Assembly: GCF_000265295.1 (NCBI RefSeq) | Contig: NC_018002.1 | Location: 1,984,001 to 2,048,000, forward strand | Length of the DNA: 64,000 nt | Source of the DNA: Sulfurospirillum barnesii SES-3 | Lineage (GTDB): Bacteria; Campylobacterota; Campylobacteria; Campylobacterales; Sulfurospirillaceae | Direction: 5' to 3' | Shown: positions 3,374 through 34,087 of the stretch, piece by piece | Position numbering within the stretch: the stretch's first letter is position 1 | Layout: every line of letters starts with the position of its first letter | Translations under genes and position numbers: made by a program | Notes under the pieces: model-generated | Seen by the model: only the letters and a program-made list of their open reading frames with translations | Database searches by the model: none | Told to the model about the DNA's origin: nothing

Positions 3374-3385
3374 TTTACATGTAAA
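3374..3385. repeat. iterated palindrome TTTACATGTAAA, intergenic copy
   Basis: Exact copy of the window-wide 12-bp palindrome, in the 119-base gap between the receptor stop codon and the downstream sigma gene. Confidence 0.9.
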
Positions 3386-8442: not shown

Positions 8443-9141
8443 TTATTTCATTGCCGCATCAAAGCGTGCATTGACCTCATTCCAATTCACCACACTCCAC
8501 CACTGTTTGAGGTAATCACCTCGTTTATTTTGATACTTGAGATAATACGCATGTTCCCATACGTCCACCGCTAAGATAGGAGTTCCTTTGATGTCAGCCA
8601 CATCCATTAAAGGATTGTCTTGATTGGGTGTTGATGTCACCGCTAATTTTTTATCGGACGTTACAACTACCCATGCCCAGCCCGAACCAAAACGAGTAGC
8701 TCCTGCTTTTTCAAACGCCTCTTTCATCTTCTCAAGACTTCCAAAATCACGCTCAATTGCTTTGGAAAGCGTAGCTGAAGGCATTCCCCCTTTTCCCATA
8801 GGTGCCATTAACTTCCAAAAAAGAGCATGGTTATAGTGTCCACCGCCATTGTTACGTACTGCTGCGTTATATTTAGAGATGCTTGCCATGATAGCTTCTA
8901 AATTCATAGATGCAAGTTCAGGATACGTTGCCACTTGCGCATTAAGATTTGAGACATACGCTTGATGATGTTTACCATGATGTATCTGCATCGTTTCTTT
9001 ATCAATAGCAGGTTCTAAAGCATCGTAACCATAAGGTAAAGGTGCTAAACTAAACGCATCTGCGGCCATGAGTGCAGGAACAAAAAACCATGAGAAAACA
9101 AGTGCCATCAAACTCTTCTGTACAAACGATTTTTGAAACAT
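8443..9141 (-). CDS. exported superoxide dismutase, Mn-type signature
   Basis: Converts superoxide to peroxide and oxygen. 232 residues, longer than a cytosolic SOD because of an N-terminal signal peptide (hydrophobic stretch residues 11-25, cleavage near LMAADA), so a periplasmic location is predicted. Metal ligands by alignment are His54, His105, Asp193 and His197. The Gly before the second ligand (GGGHYNH) and Gln174 in NQDN are the Mn-type signature rather than Fe-type. The ATG at 9141 has a strong AGGAGG. Its upstream region shares a 16-base operator with ccoN. Alternative: cambialistic enzyme. Confidence 0.93.
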   Translation of the reverse strand: MFQKSFVQKSLMALVFSWFFVPALMAADAFSLAPLPYGYDALEPAIDKETMQIHHGKHHQAYVSNLNAQVATYPELASMNLEAIMASISKYNAAVRNNGGGHYNHALFWKLMAPMGKGGMPSATLSKAIERDFGSLEKMKEAFEKAGATRFGSGWAWVVVTSDKKLAVTSTPNQDNPLMDVADIKGTPILAVDVWEHAYYLKYQNKRGDYLKQWWSVVNWNEVNARFDAAMK

Positions 9142-9178
9142 ATGATGCCTCCTAGAAGATTTAATAAAGTTGATTTTA

Positions 9179-9194
9179 TCACAAAAATATCACA
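9179..9194 (-). promoter_or_regulatory. shared TGTGA-repeat operator upstream of SOD
   Basis: On the minus strand TGTGATATTTTTGTGA, with TGTGA twice at an 11-base period. The identical 16-mer occurs upstream of ccoN (32041-32056). It lies 38-53 bases before the SOD ATG, below a TATAAA -10 candidate (9208-9213). The 11-base direct repeat is the usual layout for OmpR/PhoB-type regulators. Confidence 0.6.
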
Positions 9195-9279
9195 ACTTTG
9201 ACTACATTTTATAGGGGTTGAAATTAAAATACGCTGAGAAAAAAAGGAGATAAAAAACGTCAAAGAAAAGAGAAGAAAA

Positions 9280-24930: not shown

Positions 24931-27269
24931 ACCAGATCCTCTTTCCCACACAGCAGTGTATAAGGGCACAGCCTGCAATGCTTAATGTCTTCGCACAGTT
25001 CATATCCATTTAATGGCGCAGAGAGCTCCTTTAATATATCCCCTAAACGTGCTGTTTTCTCTTCTAAAAACGTTTCAGGTACCAAAATACCCTCTTTAAG
25101 GTCATAATAATAAACCCCCGCAACCCGCCCCAACGTAGCTGCGATGAGCGCATAAAATACCAATTGAAAATCCACCGTAGCCTCTAAAGTTTTTTCAGTA
25201 CTGGTAGGAATTTTTCCGCTTTTATAATCAATCACAAAAAGATTTCCCTCTTTTTCATCCATCCTATCTATTTGTCCCTCGAGTACGAATCCCTCATACG
25301 AAATAGCGTGTATAAACTCTTTTTTAAACACACGAAATCTCTCATCAAATCGTTGAATCTCATTGCGAATAAAAGGACGCAATTTTTCCAACCACACGTC
25401 CACAAAATAGCCCCATACTTCGTGAGTATTTTGTTCTTTTAATAGCCTTTCAATGGTACTAAAAAGTTTTTTTTCATCCAAAAGCGCTTCATGGCAAATA
25501 GCTTCTTCTAAAACTTTATGCAAAGAGACACCAATACTTTGCTCATTAATAACATGGCTGGGCATTTTTGCCTCTTTCAATTTTGCGATGTAACGAAAGT
25601 AAAATTGACGTTTACAGCTCAACAATATTTTGAGTTTTGTAGCAGAGAGCGGATGGGCTTTTAAGTCATACGGGGCATCAATAAAGGCTTCAAAATAAGG
25701 TATTTTTGATGCCTTTGGTTCAAATAAAAGCGTATAGAGAGCTTTTTCATCCGCCATTTTAGTGCTCTGAAAGCCTAATGTATCTAGGAAACGTGAGGGC
25801 ATTGAGGTTTCATTCTTTACATAAGAAATCGCTATCATTTTTGCTTTGGAAAAAAGCTGATGATAATAATATCTTTGCAAATTCTCTCGATCTTTTTTAG
25901 TAGGAAGCCCTGCATGAAAACGAACATGTGAAGAGAGAAAAAGGTCTTTGGAAGAGCGTTTTGGCACATATTCATCATTAAAATCAACAACGATAACACC
26001 CTTGTAAGCCACTCCACGAGTTTCCAAAACGCCCATAACCGTCACTTTTCCCCCTTTTACATCGTCTTCACTCAAGACGCTCAAACGGTTTAAAAAAAGT
26101 TTACAGATTTGCTCAAAACGTAACATAGGTGCATGATTTAGAAAATGCTCAAACGCAAAAAATGCCTCTTTAAAAAGTGCTTTTTCTGTTTCTTGTTCAC
26201 TCAGCAAGCGTTCATAAAACGCCATTGCTTCTTGAGCTTTGAGTTTTTGATACCACATTTCTTTACATGTAAAACGTATCTGCTCATCAATCCCCAAACG
26301 ATCCAACCTAAGATAATCTTCAATCGCATCGTTTCGCATGGCTTTTTCAAGTGCACCAAGTTTTTGAAAAAACGAACTTTGTTTAACGCTGATTCCCATC
26401 GCAAAATTGAGATTTTTCCAACTATCAAAACGAGAAAGGCTTTGTGCAAAATGCTCATCAGGTAAAACCACCACTATTTCATTGGGCAAAAGTCCTTCGT
26501 GTACAAAGCGTGCAATGGAGTTTTGCACATACGCTATTTGTGGTAACCTAGAGCTAAAGCCATAACTTTCAATATTTTGATCCAAAGGAATTTGTGGGCT
26601 TACATGTAAAATAGTTTTGGTTGAAAAATTAATTTCATAGCTTTTATTGAACTCTAATGCTATGCCATAGTCATGAAAATGATCTTTCATTTTTTGGTTG
26701 TAAGGTGTTATGCATACCCTTACATGTAAAGGAATAAGCTTTGCTATTTGGCATAAAATCGCCCATTCAAATTGGCTTAAAAACCCTTCTAAATGAATAC
26801 GTACAGCTCCCAGTGAGCGAACATAGTCCTCATTAATGGTGTACAATTCAGGTAAGGTAATGCGGTCATACAAAGCGTGTTTAGACAGGAGTGCTTGGTA
26901 TTGTTTTAAAAGCATTTGCAATATTTCTAAATGCTCTGCGTAATGCTCATAGGTATCCACACCCCTAAGTGTTTGTAAGCTTACACGTTCATGAGCGAGC
27001 TCTTCAAAAAAACGAAAAAGGTATGAGGAGTTCTTTAAAAAGGTAAAAAATTCACGATCAATATGTAGAAGTTCAAAACGAGTAAAGCGTGAAGCTTCTT
27101 GCATTAAAAGGACACGCATATCCTCATCAACCAAAGAGTGATGAGGCACAAGGATAGCTTTTTGTTCTAATTCAGCCATAGTCATGGCTTTTGGAAGCAA
27201 TGTATTGCTTTGTATAAATGTCTCATAAAATACACGTATCGCACGACTCGTTGCAAAAACTTCTACCAT
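24927..27269 (-). CDS. addB: AddB-type subunit, nuclease with iron-sulfur cysteines
   Basis: Second subunit of the AddAB break-processing enzyme. 780 residues from ATG 27269, eight bases after AGGAGG; the GTG two codons earlier is too close to that site. The N-terminus VEVFATSRAIRVFYETF shows no Walker A, so helicase activity of this subunit is unlikely. The C-terminal PD-(D/E)XK nuclease has EGQIDRMDEK and FVIDYKSGK, bracketed by cysteines CKRQFYFRY and CRLCPYTLLC that in AddB proteins hold a [4Fe-4S] cluster. A palindromic operator covers the predicted start of transcription. Confidence 0.9.
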   Translation of the reverse strand: MVEVFATSRAIRVFYETFIQSNTLLPKAMTMAELEQKAILVPHHSLVDEDMRVLLMQEASRFTRFELLHIDREFFTFLKNSSYLFRFFEELAHERVSLQTLRGVDTYEHYAEHLEILQMLLKQYQALLSKHALYDRITLPELYTINEDYVRSLGAVRIHLEGFLSQFEWAILCQIAKLIPLHVRVCITPYNQKMKDHFHDYGIALEFNKSYEINFSTKTILHVSPQIPLDQNIESYGFSSRLPQIAYVQNSIARFVHEGLLPNEIVVVLPDEHFAQSLSRFDSWKNLNFAMGISVKQSSFFQKLGALEKAMRNDAIEDYLRLDRLGIDEQIRFTCKEMWYQKLKAQEAMAFYERLLSEQETEKALFKEAFFAFEHFLNHAPMLRFEQICKLFLNRLSVLSEDDVKGGKVTVMGVLETRGVAYKGVIVVDFNDEYVPKRSSKDLFLSSHVRFHAGLPTKKDRENLQRYYYHQLFSKAKMIAISYVKNETSMPSRFLDTLGFQSTKMADEKALYTLLFEPKASKIPYFEAFIDAPYDLKAHPLSATKLKILLSCKRQFYFRYIAKLKEAKMPSHVINEQSIGVSLHKVLEEAICHEALLDEKKLFSTIERLLKEQNTHEVWGYFVDVWLEKLRPFIRNEIQRFDERFRVFKKEFIHAISYEGFVLEGQIDRMDEKEGNLFVIDYKSGKIPTSTEKTLEATVDFQLVFYALIAATLGRVAGVYYYDLKEGILVPETFLEEKTARLGDILKELSAPLNGYELCEDIKHCRLCPYTLLCGKEDLV

Positions 27270-28778: not shown

Positions 28779-29627
28779 TTACTTAGCTAAAGAGCTGACA
28801 TACGTGCCAACTGCAGTTTTTTGGACATTGGTTAGACGACCATCGTTGAATTTTGGCATGTTACCAATAGCACCCTTCTTGCCTGTACCTAAAACATTAA
28901 CAACAAATTGTGCACTGCCATAAGTACTTAAATCAGGAGCACTTCCTTCCATTCCTTTGCCATCTTCACCATGACACGCTGAACATGTTGCCCAAAGTGC
29001 ACGTCCTTCTTCAACAAGGGCTGAGTTTTTGCTCTTTTTCACGCTTGAAATCTCTTGCATCATAAAAGCAGCAACCGCTTTAGCGCTTTGCTCATCCAAT
29101 AAACCTGCTGGCATTTCACCCAAAGGATACTCTGAGCCTTTAGCCCCATTTAAAATAGAAAGAACAACGGCTTCTTCATCGCCCCATTTCTCAAAATTCG
29201 CTGCTTTACCATTAATGCCATCTCCCGTAACGCCATGACACGGTGCACACTGAACCAAAAAGACACCCTCGCCCATTGCCATCAATGTTGCTTTATCAGG
29301 ATTGGCAAATTTACTTTCAAATCGTGTACTGTGGCTTTTAACATCTTCATTGTACTCACCAATTTGAGAATATGAATTAAGCGGATACCCGATGAAAAAG
29401 TACCATAATGCCCATAAAATAGTTCCTAAAAAGGAAAGTGCCCAACCAATAGGTAGAGGATTTTTATACTCACCAATACCATCCCAATTCTCTTTTGCTA
29501 ATTCTCCACTGCTTTTGTCGGTTTTCATCTGTTGAATGTACTTCCAAGACACACCAACAGTCAGAATTAAAATTGCTGCCGCACCAAGCAATGCCAATAC
29601 GTTTACATTGTCATTCAGCCAATTCAT
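28779..29627 (-). CDS. ccoP: cbb3-type cytochrome c oxidase diheme subunit CcoP
   Basis: 282 residues. An N-terminal hairpin of two membrane segments (about 10-28 and 62-80) anchors two periplasmic cytochrome c domains with CXXCH motifs at Cys127-His131 (CAPCH) and Cys215-His219 (CSACH). It takes electrons from the bc1/c pool and passes them through CcoO to CcoN. Good AGAGGAG site before ATG 29627. Confidence 0.97.
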   Translation of the reverse strand: MNWLNDNVNVLALLGAAAILILTVGVSWKYIQQMKTDKSSGELAKENWDGIGEYKNPLPIGWALSFLGTILWALWYFFIGYPLNSYSQIGEYNEDVKSHSTRFESKFANPDKATLMAMGEGVFLVQCAPCHGVTGDGINGKAANFEKWGDEEAVVLSILNGAKGSEYPLGEMPAGLLDEQSAKAVAAFMMQEISSVKKSKNSALVEEGRALWATCSACHGEDGKGMEGSAPDLSTYGSAQFVVNVLGTGKKGAIGNMPKFNDGRLTNVQKTAVGTYVSSLAK

Positions 29628-29866: not shown

Positions 29867-30532
29867 TTATTTTAAGCTATTAAGATAGGCAATGATTGCT
29901 ACTATCTCTTTGATCTCACCACGTTTAAACGCTTCTTTAACCCCTGGGTCTTTCATGTCTGCGACAATTAAAGCAGCTTCTTCCATCAGTGCTTTTTTTG
30001 CTTCATCATAACTACCCAATGTTGGCATGTCAGGCTGATCATAAGGAACATTAAAGACTTTTTTGACAGTTAATGCTTCAGCATACGCCGTGTCAATATC
30101 TGCATTGTTTTTAAACATGTGCTTGTATGCTGGCATAATAGAACCTGGAACCACACTAATTGGATCTAACATATGGTATTCATGCCAATCCGTTGTTCGG
30201 TAATTTCCAACCCTCATCAAATCAGGGCCTGTTCGTTTTGAACCCCAAAGGAATGGTCTATCATACGCATATTCGCCACTTAAAGAGTACATACCATAAC
30301 GATCTGTCTCAGATTTGAAAGGACGAACAAGCTGTGAATGGCAGGCATTACAGCTATCTTTGATATAAACATGACGACCTGCAAGTTCAAGGACTGTATA
30401 CGGTTTTGTTCCCGTAACAGGACGTGCACTCTCCATAAAATCTGGAAGAATGGTTACAACACCTGCATACGCAATCACCAAGAAGACACCTACCGCAAAA
30501 AAGAATGGGTTTTTTTCTAACCAATGAAACAT
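29867..30532 (-). CDS. ccoO: cbb3-type cytochrome c oxidase monoheme subunit CcoO
   Basis: 221 residues. A membrane anchor (residues 9-29) is followed by a periplasmic cytochrome c domain with Cys61-Asn-Ala-Cys64-His65. VVPGSIMPAYKHMF supplies the likely axial Met. Strong GGGAGGG before ATG 30532. 15 bases after ccoN. Confidence 0.97.
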   Translation of the reverse strand: MFHWLEKNPFFFAVGVFLVIAYAGVVTILPDFMESARPVTGTKPYTVLELAGRHVYIKDSCNACHSQLVRPFKSETDRYGMYSLSGEYAYDRPFLWGSKRTGPDLMRVGNYRTTDWHEYHMLDPISVVPGSIMPAYKHMFKNNADIDTAYAEALTVKKVFNVPYDQPDMPTLGSYDEAKKALMEEAALIVADMKDPGVKEAFKRGEIKEIVAIIAYLNSLK

Positions 30533-30547
30533 AATTTTACCCTCCCC

Positions 30548-32014
30548 TTACGCTGCCATAGGTGAAGCATTTTGAGGTTCTCTCTCAATTGCTTTACTTG
30601 CAGTCATCGTTTTATATAGATTATAACTAAACATAAAGAAACCAATTAAATACAATAAACCACCCGTTGCACGTAAGGCATAATAAGGGATAAGTACGGT
30701 TACTGTATCAATGAAGGAGTACGCAAGATTGCCATACTGATCACTGGCTCTCCACATCATTCCTTGTGTAATTCCTGCAATCCACATACTGGTAAAGTAC
30801 ATTACAATACCTGTGGTTTGAAGCCAAAATTGTGATTCCATCAATTTTTTACTGTAAAGCTCACGTTTATACATACGTGGTGCCATATGATAGAGTGCTG
30901 CCATGGTCATAAATCCAACCCAGCCTAATGTACCATCATGAACGTGACCTGGAATCCAATCTGTAAAGTGTGCTAACGCATTAACCGATTTGATTGCTTG
31001 AATCGGACCTTCTAGTGTACTTAACATGTAAAAGGTTGAAGCAAAAATCATAAACTTAATCAATGGATTTTCTTTAAGTTGGCCCCATTGTCCTTTCATG
31101 GTTAAAAGCATATTAATTGCACTACCCCATGATGGAAGAATCAAGATAACTGAAAAAATAGATCCCATGGTTTGAACCCAATCAGGCACTGTAGAATAAA
31201 GTAAGTGGTGACCACCTGCCCAAAGGTAAACAAACATCAAACCCCAAAAAGAAAGAAGTGATAGCTTATAAGAGAAAACAGGCTGACCTGATTCTTTTGG
31301 TAAGAAGTAATAAATCATCGCAATAATAGGCACCGTGAAAACGAAGGCTACCGCATTGTGTCCATACCACCATTGTACCATCGCATCATTGGTTCCTGCA
31401 TACATTGAAACAGAGTGATACCATTTACCCACACCTGCAACAAAATACGTAGGTACAGCCATATTATTAAACAAATACAGCATTGCCACACCTAAAAAGG
31501 TAGCGATAAAATACCACATAGAGATATAGAGTGTTTTTTCACGGCGAATACCGATAAGTCCAAAAATACTAATACCCCAAAGTACCCATAAAACAACCAC
31601 AGCAATATCCAATGGCCATTCAAGTTCTGCATACTCTTTTGACGTACCAATACCCATAAACAAGGTGACAACAGCCGTAAGAATTGTCAACATGTAAATC
31701 CAAAAATGAAGCCTTCCAATAATCATCAAAAACGGTGATTCTGCCATGGAAACCTTTAGTACTCTCTGCCCGATATAGTACCATGTCGCAAAAATCCCAC
31801 TTAACAAAAAGCCGAAGATGACACCAGACGTGTGAAGGGGTCGTAAACGACTAAATGTTCCGTATTCACCCGCCAAGTAATTCAACTCAGGGAAAGCCAT
31901 CTGATAGGCAATAACTACGCCTATTAACATACCAATAATTCCAAATAGAATCGTTGCGTATGTAAAACATTTCGCTACTGAGTAATCATAGTTCAATGCA
32001 TGATTAGCCTGCAT
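30548..32014 (-). CDS. ccoN: cbb3-type cytochrome c oxidase catalytic subunit CcoN
   Basis: 488-residue heme-copper oxidase subunit I with about twelve membrane helices; reduces oxygen to water with high affinity and pumps protons. Heme and CuB ligands lie in VQWWYGHNAVAF, GGHHLLYSTVPDW and PGHVHDGTLGWVG. The start is ATG 32014, five bases after AGGAGGA; the TTG one codon earlier is not needed. First gene of ccoNOQP-DUF4006-small ORF-TPM-fixH. Upstream are a TATAAT and the TGTGA-repeat operator shared with the exported SOD. Confidence 0.97.
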   Translation of the reverse strand: MQANHALNYDYSVAKCFTYATILFGIIGMLIGVVIAYQMAFPELNYLAGEYGTFSRLRPLHTSGVIFGFLLSGIFATWYYIGQRVLKVSMAESPFLMIIGRLHFWIYMLTILTAVVTLFMGIGTSKEYAELEWPLDIAVVVLWVLWGISIFGLIGIRREKTLYISMWYFIATFLGVAMLYLFNNMAVPTYFVAGVGKWYHSVSMYAGTNDAMVQWWYGHNAVAFVFTVPIIAMIYYFLPKESGQPVFSYKLSLLSFWGLMFVYLWAGGHHLLYSTVPDWVQTMGSIFSVILILPSWGSAINMLLTMKGQWGQLKENPLIKFMIFASTFYMLSTLEGPIQAIKSVNALAHFTDWIPGHVHDGTLGWVGFMTMAALYHMAPRMYKRELYSKKLMESQFWLQTTGIVMYFTSMWIAGITQGMMWRASDQYGNLAYSFIDTVTVLIPYYALRATGGLLYLIGFFMFSYNLYKTMTASKAIEREPQNASPMAA

Positions 32015-32040
32015 CAATTCCTCCTGTTTGTGTTTTTATG

Positions 32041-32056
32041 TCACAAAAATATCACA
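32041..32056 (-). promoter_or_regulatory. shared TGTGA-repeat operator upstream of ccoN
   Basis: Identical to the 16-mer before the SOD gene: TGTGATATTTTTGTGA on the minus strand. Here it also sits inside a 24-base imperfect palindrome (32036-32059, ends TTATGT and ACATAA). It lies 27-42 bases before the ccoN ATG and just downstream of the -10, a location suited to repression or to a start-site regulator. Confidence 0.6.
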
Positions 32057-32066
32057 TAATGGAGAA

Positions 32067-32072: not shown

Positions 32073-32171
32073 GTGAAGAGAATCTGCAATAAAGCTTAAG
32101 AAGATTAAATTAGTGTTAAATAGAAAATATGAAGAAAATCTTTAAATAGGAAGAAAGCAAGAACAATGAAA

Positions 32172-32852
32172 TTATCGTTCTTGCGTATTAATTTTATACC
32201 CAAGTCCTGGAATATTTTTAATAAAATCTTTGTCCGTTTTCTCACGAACTCGTTTAATAAAGGTTCTAATGGCTGAATCTGTTACTTTTTTGTTTGTCCA
32301 AACATGTTTTTTAATCTCATCGTGCAAAACAAATACTCCTAAATTTTTAACTAAGATAGAGATAAAAAGGAGTTCTTTTTTTGTTAAGAAAATTGTATTG
32401 CCTTCTTTAACCAGCACACGCCTGTTTTTATCAAATTGGTAATCAAATCCTAAATCCACACACGCATCCTCATTGAACAATTCTGCAGAAAGGAAATGAA
32501 GCACGTCTAAGAGTTCCTCAGGATCGATAGGTTTAATTAAGTATTTATCAATTCCAACATCAATAGCTTCTAAAAGTTTTTCTTTTTCGCTAAAGGCACT
32601 AAGCACAACGATAGGTGTCGTTTTGGAGAGGTGCTTAATCTCTTTTGCCATACTAAGCCCATCCATAATAGGCATCATAATATCTGTAATCACAATATCA
32701 GGCTTATATTTTTTAAACTTTTTTAATCCATCTTCACCATCACGCGCGAGGATACATTTATGAAACTCATCAGCCATCGCTTTGTGCAAGGCTTCTCGTA
32801 TATACTCTTCATCTTCAACAAATAAAACGGTTAATTTTGACAATCCGCTCAT
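32172..32852 (-). CDS. OmpR-family response regulator
   Basis: 226 residues from ATG 32852, which overlaps the kinase stop by ATGA and follows GGGAG. The receiver domain (about 10-120) has the acidic pair VEDEE, the phosphoacceptor in DIVITDIMMP and the Lys of YLIKPID. The winged-helix domain (about 140-226) has LTKKELLFISIL and DSAIRTFIKRVREK, an OmpR/PhoB-type DNA binder expected to bind direct repeats with an 11-base period. Such a repeat lies before ccoN, the next gene, and before the SOD gene. Confidence 0.95.
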   Translation of the reverse strand: MSGLSKLTVLFVEDEEYIREALHKAMADEFHKCILARDGEDGLKKFKKYKPDIVITDIMMPIMDGLSMAKEIKHLSKTTPIVVLSAFSEKEKLLEAIDVGIDKYLIKPIDPEELLDVLHFLSAELFNEDACVDLGFDYQFDKNRRVLVKEGNTIFLTKKELLFISILVKNLGVFVLHDEIKKHVWTNKKVTDSAIRTFIKRVREKTDKDFIKNIPGLGYKINTQER

Positions 32853-34087
32853 TTTTCTCCCTTTCCCTCTTTGGCTTTGGGTATTGTTATTGTAAAACAC
32901 GCTCCATCGTTTTCATTCTTAACAACAATCAGCCCTTTCATACTGTTATTAACAATCATTTTGCTCATGTAGAGCCCAAGTCCTGTACCAGAGCTAGCAT
33001 GCTTTGTTGTAAAATACGGCTCAAAAACTTTATCTAAGAGACTCTCTTCAATGCCACCTGCATTATCACAAAGACGCATTATAGCATCTCCTTGCATTGA
33101 TGTGTCAATTTCAATATAAATTAATCTTTGTTTAATATTATTCATATTAAATGCATCGATAGAATTATTAATGATATTAATAAAGACTTGTGAAAATTCA
33201 TTAAAATAGCCCTGAATAAAAACATCAGAATGAACTACAAGGTCTATTTTAACCTCATTTCGCTCTAATGTTCCTCGCATAATATCAATAGCTTCTTTTG
33301 CAACACGGCTTAATGCAAAAAGATCACTTTGCCTTTCAGGACTAAAAAAGTTACGAAAATCTTCAATGGTTTCAGACATTTTTGAGATGATCTTTTTCGC
33401 ATGGGCGTAGCTTTGCTCAAACGCATCATCTTTGTCACTATGCTGTTTAGTATAGACCTTTTTCATCTGATACAAGGTAATGGTAAGTTCAGAGAGGGGT
33501 TGTCGCCATTGATGGGCTATATTGGCAATCATTTCACCCATAGAAGCCAATCGTGATTGTTGAAACAAAAAACGATCTTTCTCACGGTTTTTTTCAACTT
33601 CTTCTTTTACTTTCTCTTCTAATGTTTGGTTTAATTCGACCAATGCTTTGGTTTGCTCTTCGACACGTTTTTCTAAAGTCGCATTGAGTTCTTCTAACTC
33701 TTTATCTTTCGTCATCAGTGCTTCACTTAAGCGTACACTCTCTGTCACATCGTAACGAATCGCAATAAACTCTTCAATATCACCCACTTCATTCAAAATA
33801 GGAAATACGGTTGTATTGACATAAAAGGTTGAGCCATCTTTGGCTTTGTTTTTAACCGTTGATTTATACGCTTTTTTTTGAAGAATTGTTTGCCACAATT
33901 TTTTAAAGATTGAGGCGTCTACATCAGGGTGCCTTACAATATTATGATTTTGCCCAATCAGCTCTTCTTTGCTATAACCCGAAATCTTGCAAAATTCATC
34001 ATTTACAAAGGTGATAATACCATTAATATCTGTTTTTGAGATAATATTACTACTCTCAATTGCCTCTTGATATTGCTCTAGTTTCAT
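32849..34087 (-). CDS. PAS-domain sensor histidine kinase without membrane segment
   Basis: 412 residues, cytoplasmic. The PAS domain (about 10-115) contains NHNIVRHPDVDASIF, the pattern of aerotaxis-type PAS domains that bind FAD. A long coiled coil (about 120-180) leads to the H-box with His192 (NIAHQWRQPLSE) and a catalytic domain with N box NIINNSIDAF, G1 DNAGGI and G2 GTGLGLYMS. It overlaps genes on both sides by ATGA and lies directly before the oxidase operon, so redox or oxygen sensing is a reasonable guess. In C. jejuni the pair in this position has, as I recall, been linked to butyrate response (BumSR). Confidence 0.93.
   Translation of the reverse strand: MKLEQYQEAIESSNIISKTDINGIITFVNDEFCKISGYSKEELIGQNHNIVRHPDVDASIFKKLWQTILQKKAYKSTVKNKAKDGSTFYVNTTVFPILNEVGDIEEFIAIRYDVTESVRLSEALMTKDKELEELNATLEKRVEEQTKALVELNQTLEEKVKEEVEKNREKDRFLFQQSRLASMGEMIANIAHQWRQPLSELTITLYQMKKVYTKQHSDKDDAFEQSYAHAKKIISKMSETIEDFRNFFSPERQSDLFALSRVAKEAIDIMRGTLERNEVKIDLVVHSDVFIQGYFNEFSQVFINIINNSIDAFNMNNIKQRLIYIEIDTSMQGDAIMRLCDNAGGIEESLLDKVFEPYFTTKHASSGTGLGLYMSKMIVNNSMKGLIVVKNENDGACFTITIPKAKEGKGEK

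Follow-up and report, generated by a model that had tools for sequence, protein, structure and literature searches.

The two TGTGA repeats of a 16-base sequence before ccoN, in the Sulfurospirillum genome studied here, can face each other as the two arms of a hairpin in the leader RNA, and comparison of leaders across the order favours such a stem-loop over a direct-repeat operator of the OmpR/PhoB type. This preference is based on several observations: the pairing is conserved and covaries, the loop length varies, the native arms pair better than arms combined across families (with no signal in control regions), and unrelated hairpins are found at this place in other families. Our explanation of the whole, to which we assign a probability of about 0.58, is that the ccoN copy belongs to a stem-loop in the leader of the ccoNOQP mRNA, that the stem slows decay of the mRNA, that a CosR-type box lies upstream, and that the second copy, before a superoxide dismutase gene, is an unproven member.

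Conservation of the 16-mer at ccoN

The window (the whole 64-kb stretch of DNA analysed) is part of the 2.51-Mb single-contig genome of a Sulfurospirillum. It contains exactly two copies of TGTGATATTTTTGTGA, at 9179-9194 and 32041-32056, both on the minus strand; both are exact matches, and the identical repeat is where the earlier note had placed it. The first copy is in the leader of a gene for a Fe/Mn superoxide dismutase (SOD; 8443-9141, minus strand), whose product has an N-terminal hydrophobic stretch resembling a signal peptide. The second is in the leader of ccoN, encoding cbb3 oxidase subunit I (30548-32014, minus strand), with ccoO (29867-30532) and ccoP (28779-29627) downstream. The site ends 37 nt before the ATG of SOD (at 9141) and 26 nt before that of ccoN (at 32014). 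As had also been described, each copy lies just below a -10 candidate, which is the -10-like hexamer TATAAA (9213-9208, minus strand) at SOD and TATAAT (32072-32067, minus strand), conserved throughout the genus, at ccoN. The Shine-Dalgarno sequence of ccoN, AGGAGG, is at 32020-32025 on the minus strand. Both sites contain the direct repeat TGTGA-N6-TGTGA, with an 11-base period that corresponds to a helical turn. Among all 16-mers of the window, TGTGATATTTTTGTGA alone recurs in the 100 nt ahead of two starts, and only 0.2 matches to the 16-mer with up to two mismatches are expected by chance in 64 kb.

At ccoN, we observed the element TTATGTGATATTTTTGTGACATAA in all of the 22 genus genomes with a readable leader, with a single change in one species. 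Its position is likewise constant, between the invariant TATAAT and the Shine-Dalgarno sequence. Other genera of the family retain TTATGTGA and TGACATAA at ccoN, and the middle varies. Judged by this conservation, the part of the earlier claim that concerns a regulatory element at ccoN stands: the site is real and strongly conserved. Conservation in the genus extends over the entire ccoN promoter, between about -60 and the Shine-Dalgarno sequence; it is unusually high and exceeds the need of a simple promoter.

We then read the leaders of about 80 further genomes and 80 named loci across the order. The ccoN leaders of arcobacters have AAGUGAC-loop-GUGACUU, those of another family CAUGUGAU-loop-GUGACAU, and Campylobacter-like leaders UGUCA-N6-UGACA. 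The remaining leaders have UGUUAC-N6-GUAACA, UAUGUUA-loop-UAACAUA, or unrelated longer hairpins. The motif is absent from the ccoN leaders of C. jejuni and C. coli, and families without the motif often have a different hairpin at the same place.

Pairing in the ccoN leader

The minimum free energy structure of the ccoN leader is a predicted stem-loop, UUAUGU-G-AU[AUUUUU]GU-G-ACAUAA, at 32036-32059 on the minus strand. It consists of six base pairs, a G.G mismatch, three base pairs and a UUUU loop (-6.6 kcal/mol). The two TGTGA repeats would thus be the two strands of the stem, GU-G-AY and GU-G-AC, facing each other across the G.G mismatch. The stem begins 7 nt past TATAAT; since transcription is predicted to start at about this distance from the -10, the stem would begin at or near +1, and it ends before the Shine-Dalgarno sequence.

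The order-wide form is GU-G-AY[5-7 nt]RU-G-AC, in which the G.G mismatch is conserved. The pattern GU-x-AY-N-RU-x-AC was present in 73 of 153 distinct leaders; x.x was G.G in 65 of these, and in the other eight it was U-A, C-G, U.G or A-U, all of which are pairs. Outer pair 1 was kept in 70 of the 73 leaders (shuffled mean, 42.7) and pair 4 in 67 (shuffled mean, 40.9), where U-A and A-U are swapped between families. In alignment A2, we observed 94.8% of cells paired and a covariation of 0.379, a value reached in none of 500 shuffles and exceeding that of slid frames (up to 0.135); both A2 and the set of 73 leaders were selected for possessing the core motif, and the swaps represent few independent between-family events. 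For this reason, more weight is carried by a less selective chimera test, in which the pairing energy of the two halves of each leader was compared with that of chimeras containing halves from other families. The native arms paired better in 16 of 19 families (p = 7e-4), and no signal was obtained in two neighbouring control regions (p = 0.72 and 0.63). RNAalifold predicted no pairs on a wide alignment of 28 sequences (A1), and counts of named pairs were used in its place. The predicted stem is weak, and its stability is unusual to a moderate degree only: the mean z was -1.3 over all leaders, versus -0.54 for other intergenic leaders of the window. The leader has the conserved, covarying stem expected of a stabilising stem-loop in a 5' UTR.

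The loop is 5, 6 or 7 nt long within the arcobacters and 3-7 nt overall, so that the spacing of the GTGA halves in arcobacters is 10, 11 or 12. The earlier note had proposed an operator of the OmpR/PhoB direct-repeat type. This proposal is not supported, because the conserved feature is the inverted-repeat pairing, the spacing of half-sites is not fixed between orthologous promoters, and the site is downstream of the -10. More generally, a regulator that binds as a dimer (the adjacent response regulator, a CosR-like protein or some other) may bind the imperfect repeat as DNA just downstream of the -10 and repress both ccoN and SOD. We regard this as the main rival of the stem-loop, and as unlikely. 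The arm sequence is nearly fixed inside each family, which points to recognition of the sequence itself, perhaps in DNA. A phased DNA operator would poorly tolerate the shifts of 1-2 bp seen in arcobacters, and thus the varying loop length argues against it; in addition, the dyad symmetry is broken at the G.G position. An FNR/CRP-type dyad was rejected by eye for its unsuitable spacing, and a literature search for a DccR-type repeat gave no paper.

The repeat could also be composed of promoter elements, with the second TGTGA providing the TG of an extended -10 (TTTTTGTGATAAAAT at SOD, TGTGACATAAA at ccoN) and the 16-mer being promoter-like sequence plus coincidence. SOD indeed reads TG-A-TAAAAT, and TGTGATAAAAT in the same genome or TGTGATATAAT in another family occurs before genes elsewhere. 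However, ccoN already has a perfect, conserved TATAAT upstream, CATAAA would make a weak -10, and this reading does not account for the upstream arm or for its pairing, so that we consider this origin very improbable.

The SOD copy and the genome-wide search

Among eight relatives, the 16-mer at SOD is exact in two species and differs by one base in three. The other three have intact ccoN copies, but the SOD copy has degenerated in G018 and is absent from G005 and G008. When searched with the ccoN covariance model (R1), the SOD site scored 14.5 bits with E = 0.79 in 64 kb, which is not significant. The SOD leader has an inverted repeat of its own, AAAGTTG-N20-CAACTTT (9166-9199, minus strand), which starts 8 nt after the -10 and whose pairing differs from that of ccoN. 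The leader folds preferentially through arms other than those of the 16-mer, and in G018 a different, longer hairpin occupies that place. The SOD leader may thus carry its own stem-loop at the matching position and have the 16-mer in common with ccoN through limited local resemblance.

The earlier note had linked the two genes in a shared regulon; the loss or degeneration of the SOD site in three of eight relatives and its poor fit to the ccoN model weaken this link, and co-regulation of SOD and ccoN through the 16-mer is possible but not supported by the sequences. A narrower version is that the two genes are truly co-regulated, through RNA or DNA, within one clade (this genome, G002, G015, G016 and G020). 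It draws on the 16-mer being exact or one base off at SOD in these five species, about equally far from the -10, and on its being the sole such upstream repeat in the window. Given the intact ccoN copies beside lost SOD copies, the insignificant score and the preference of the SOD leader for other arms, we consider this co-regulation improbable.

In pattern searches of the genome, TGTGA-N6-TGTGA occurred 15 times, versus nine times for the reversed control, and mostly within genes; the motif is therefore not enriched. One intergenic case was at the dnaA region. Allowing up to one mismatch, TGTGAYATTTTTGTGA was found one to five times per Sulfurospirillum genome (reversed control 0-3, mostly 0). 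Among the matches inspected, the ccoN site alone was constant, and the rest were mostly in coding sequence or not conserved. Because of this distribution, there is no broad TGTGA-repeat regulon. In model searches of the Sulfurospirillum genomes with the ccoN covariance model, ccoN was the sole match with E < 0.03; every other match had E > 0.03. An Rfam scan of the window gave nothing above the gathering threshold of any family.

Candidates for further targets were rejected: near matches across the genus were mostly in argC and other coding sequence, and an apparent third target, before a small membrane protein (MDALFLIV...) on the opposite strand at a conserved place, did not keep its half-sites between species. 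Separately, TGTGATTTTTCTGTGATAAAATACG lies between two genes at 1501-1516 of locus L002 (69764-69779 of the same genome). It is probably an extended -10 promoter (TG-A-TAAAAT), and it illustrates how TGTGA pairs can originate from promoter sequence.

Another repeat of the window is the palindrome TTACATGTAA, which is hugely over-represented, with 33 copies in 64 kb versus one of the reversed control; with up to one mismatch, TTTACATGTAAA occurs 35 times in the window versus 0.65 expected. Examples of TTACATGTAA are at 3374, 7578, 8403, 8423, 13659, 16758, 17820, 18124 and 21294, and further on at 26262, 28423, 34797, 37571, 40935, 44016, 47160 and 52477. The copies are both intragenic and intergenic, and the density is similar (0.3-0.8 per kb) elsewhere in the genome and in several other Sulfurospirillum. 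None was found in the one C. jejuni locus and the one arcobacter locus examined. It may be a highly iterated palindrome that serves DNA maintenance, methylation, uptake or termination.

Regulators near ccoN and a possible role of the predicted hairpin

An OmpR-family response regulator gene (32172-32852, minus strand) adjoins ccoN, together with a gene for a histidine kinase that has a PAS domain and an intact H box, IAHQWRQPL (32849-34087, minus strand). Every Sulfurospirillum ccoN locus that could be read has the regulator, and likewise the kinase, beside ccoN; the single genome without ccoN has no close ortholog of the regulator. A functional link of the regulator with the oxidase is plausible from this association, which also speaks for a DNA operator. 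The earlier note had offered the adjacent regulator as a possible binder of the motif. We observed that each occurs without the other: among the 80 named loci, 14 (mostly arcobacters) have the motif without an adjacent regulator, and 12, which include C. jejuni and C. coli, show the reverse. These 26 dissociated loci, in a count of regulators adjacent to ccoN, argue against this binder and against the DNA operator.

The regulator at the same locus position in C. jejuni and C. coli is 57-60% identical. By locus order, the C. jejuni ortholog of the pair is probably BumSR. In that system (Cjj81176_1484/1483), BumS has been reported to be without the residues needed for autophosphorylation (PMC11796366). 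The kinase here differs in having a canonical-looking H box, and C. jejuni ccoN is without the motif. Signalling through phosphatase activity alone may have arisen secondarily in Campylobacter.

Upstream of the ccoN -10, a tandem box TTTAAC-N5-TTTAAT (32104-32120, minus strand) has two TTTAA-type hexamers with a 5-bp spacer, and TTAAGC follows at 32094-32099 on the same strand. This geometry resembles the TTTAAG-N5-TTTAAG binding site of HP1043/HsrA (PMC5253667), and the match is a candidate site by sequence, separate from the TGTGA repeat. This part of ccoN promoters contains TTTAAG or TTAAGC across the order: 56 of 73 leaders have one or the other (shuffled mean, 3.8). For control of ccoN by an OmpR-family protein, 32104-32120 is a likelier site than the TGTGA repeat. 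In our explanation, an HP1043/CosR-type factor at these boxes would determine transcription itself. The genome has many OmpR-family regulators, and among ten scanned no NCBIfam match singles out the HP1043/CosR ortholog. CosR represses sodB in C. jejuni, where the stretch that it protects follows directly on the -10 (PMC3139631). This arrangement, an OmpR-family protein just below the -10 of a SOD gene, is like the layout that a DNA operator would have here and is a further point for such an operator; the TGTGA sites, in contrast, are not notable matches to the 21-bp CosR consensus, scoring no better than hundreds of other windows in the 64 kb. The CosR-type alternative offered in the earlier note is thus retained for the upstream box and not for the TGTGA sites.

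Returning to the stem-loop, we infer that its most likely role is to stabilise or tune the ccoNOQP mRNA post-transcriptionally. Most likely, 5'-end-dependent decay of the mRNA would be slowed by a stem located at this end, possibly with a protein partner that reads the conserved GUGA/GUGAC core. A stem-loop in the 5' UTR of the vacA mRNA of H. pylori, a species of the same bacterial order, raises mRNA half-life and is likewise a leader stem-loop conserved by sequence (PMC4843948). The gene and the sequence differ, and the effect on half-life has been shown for vacA, whereas at ccoN it is deduced. A bolder proposal, which we think improbable, is a new cis-regulatory RNA family, consisting of the GUGA/GUGAC hairpin with its G.G mismatch and a dedicated RNA-binding protein, that controls cbb3 oxidase output across Campylobacterales and that the exported SOD has taken over in one clade of Sulfurospirillum.

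Our case shows how, in AT-rich leaders, direct repeats whose halves form the strands of a stem can be mistaken for tandem operators. In this order, the main enzyme for respiring oxygen at high affinity is the cbb3 oxidase, and work on this system has dealt mostly with transcription factors. A hairpin in the leader, shared by most of the order, would add post-transcriptional control to this picture.
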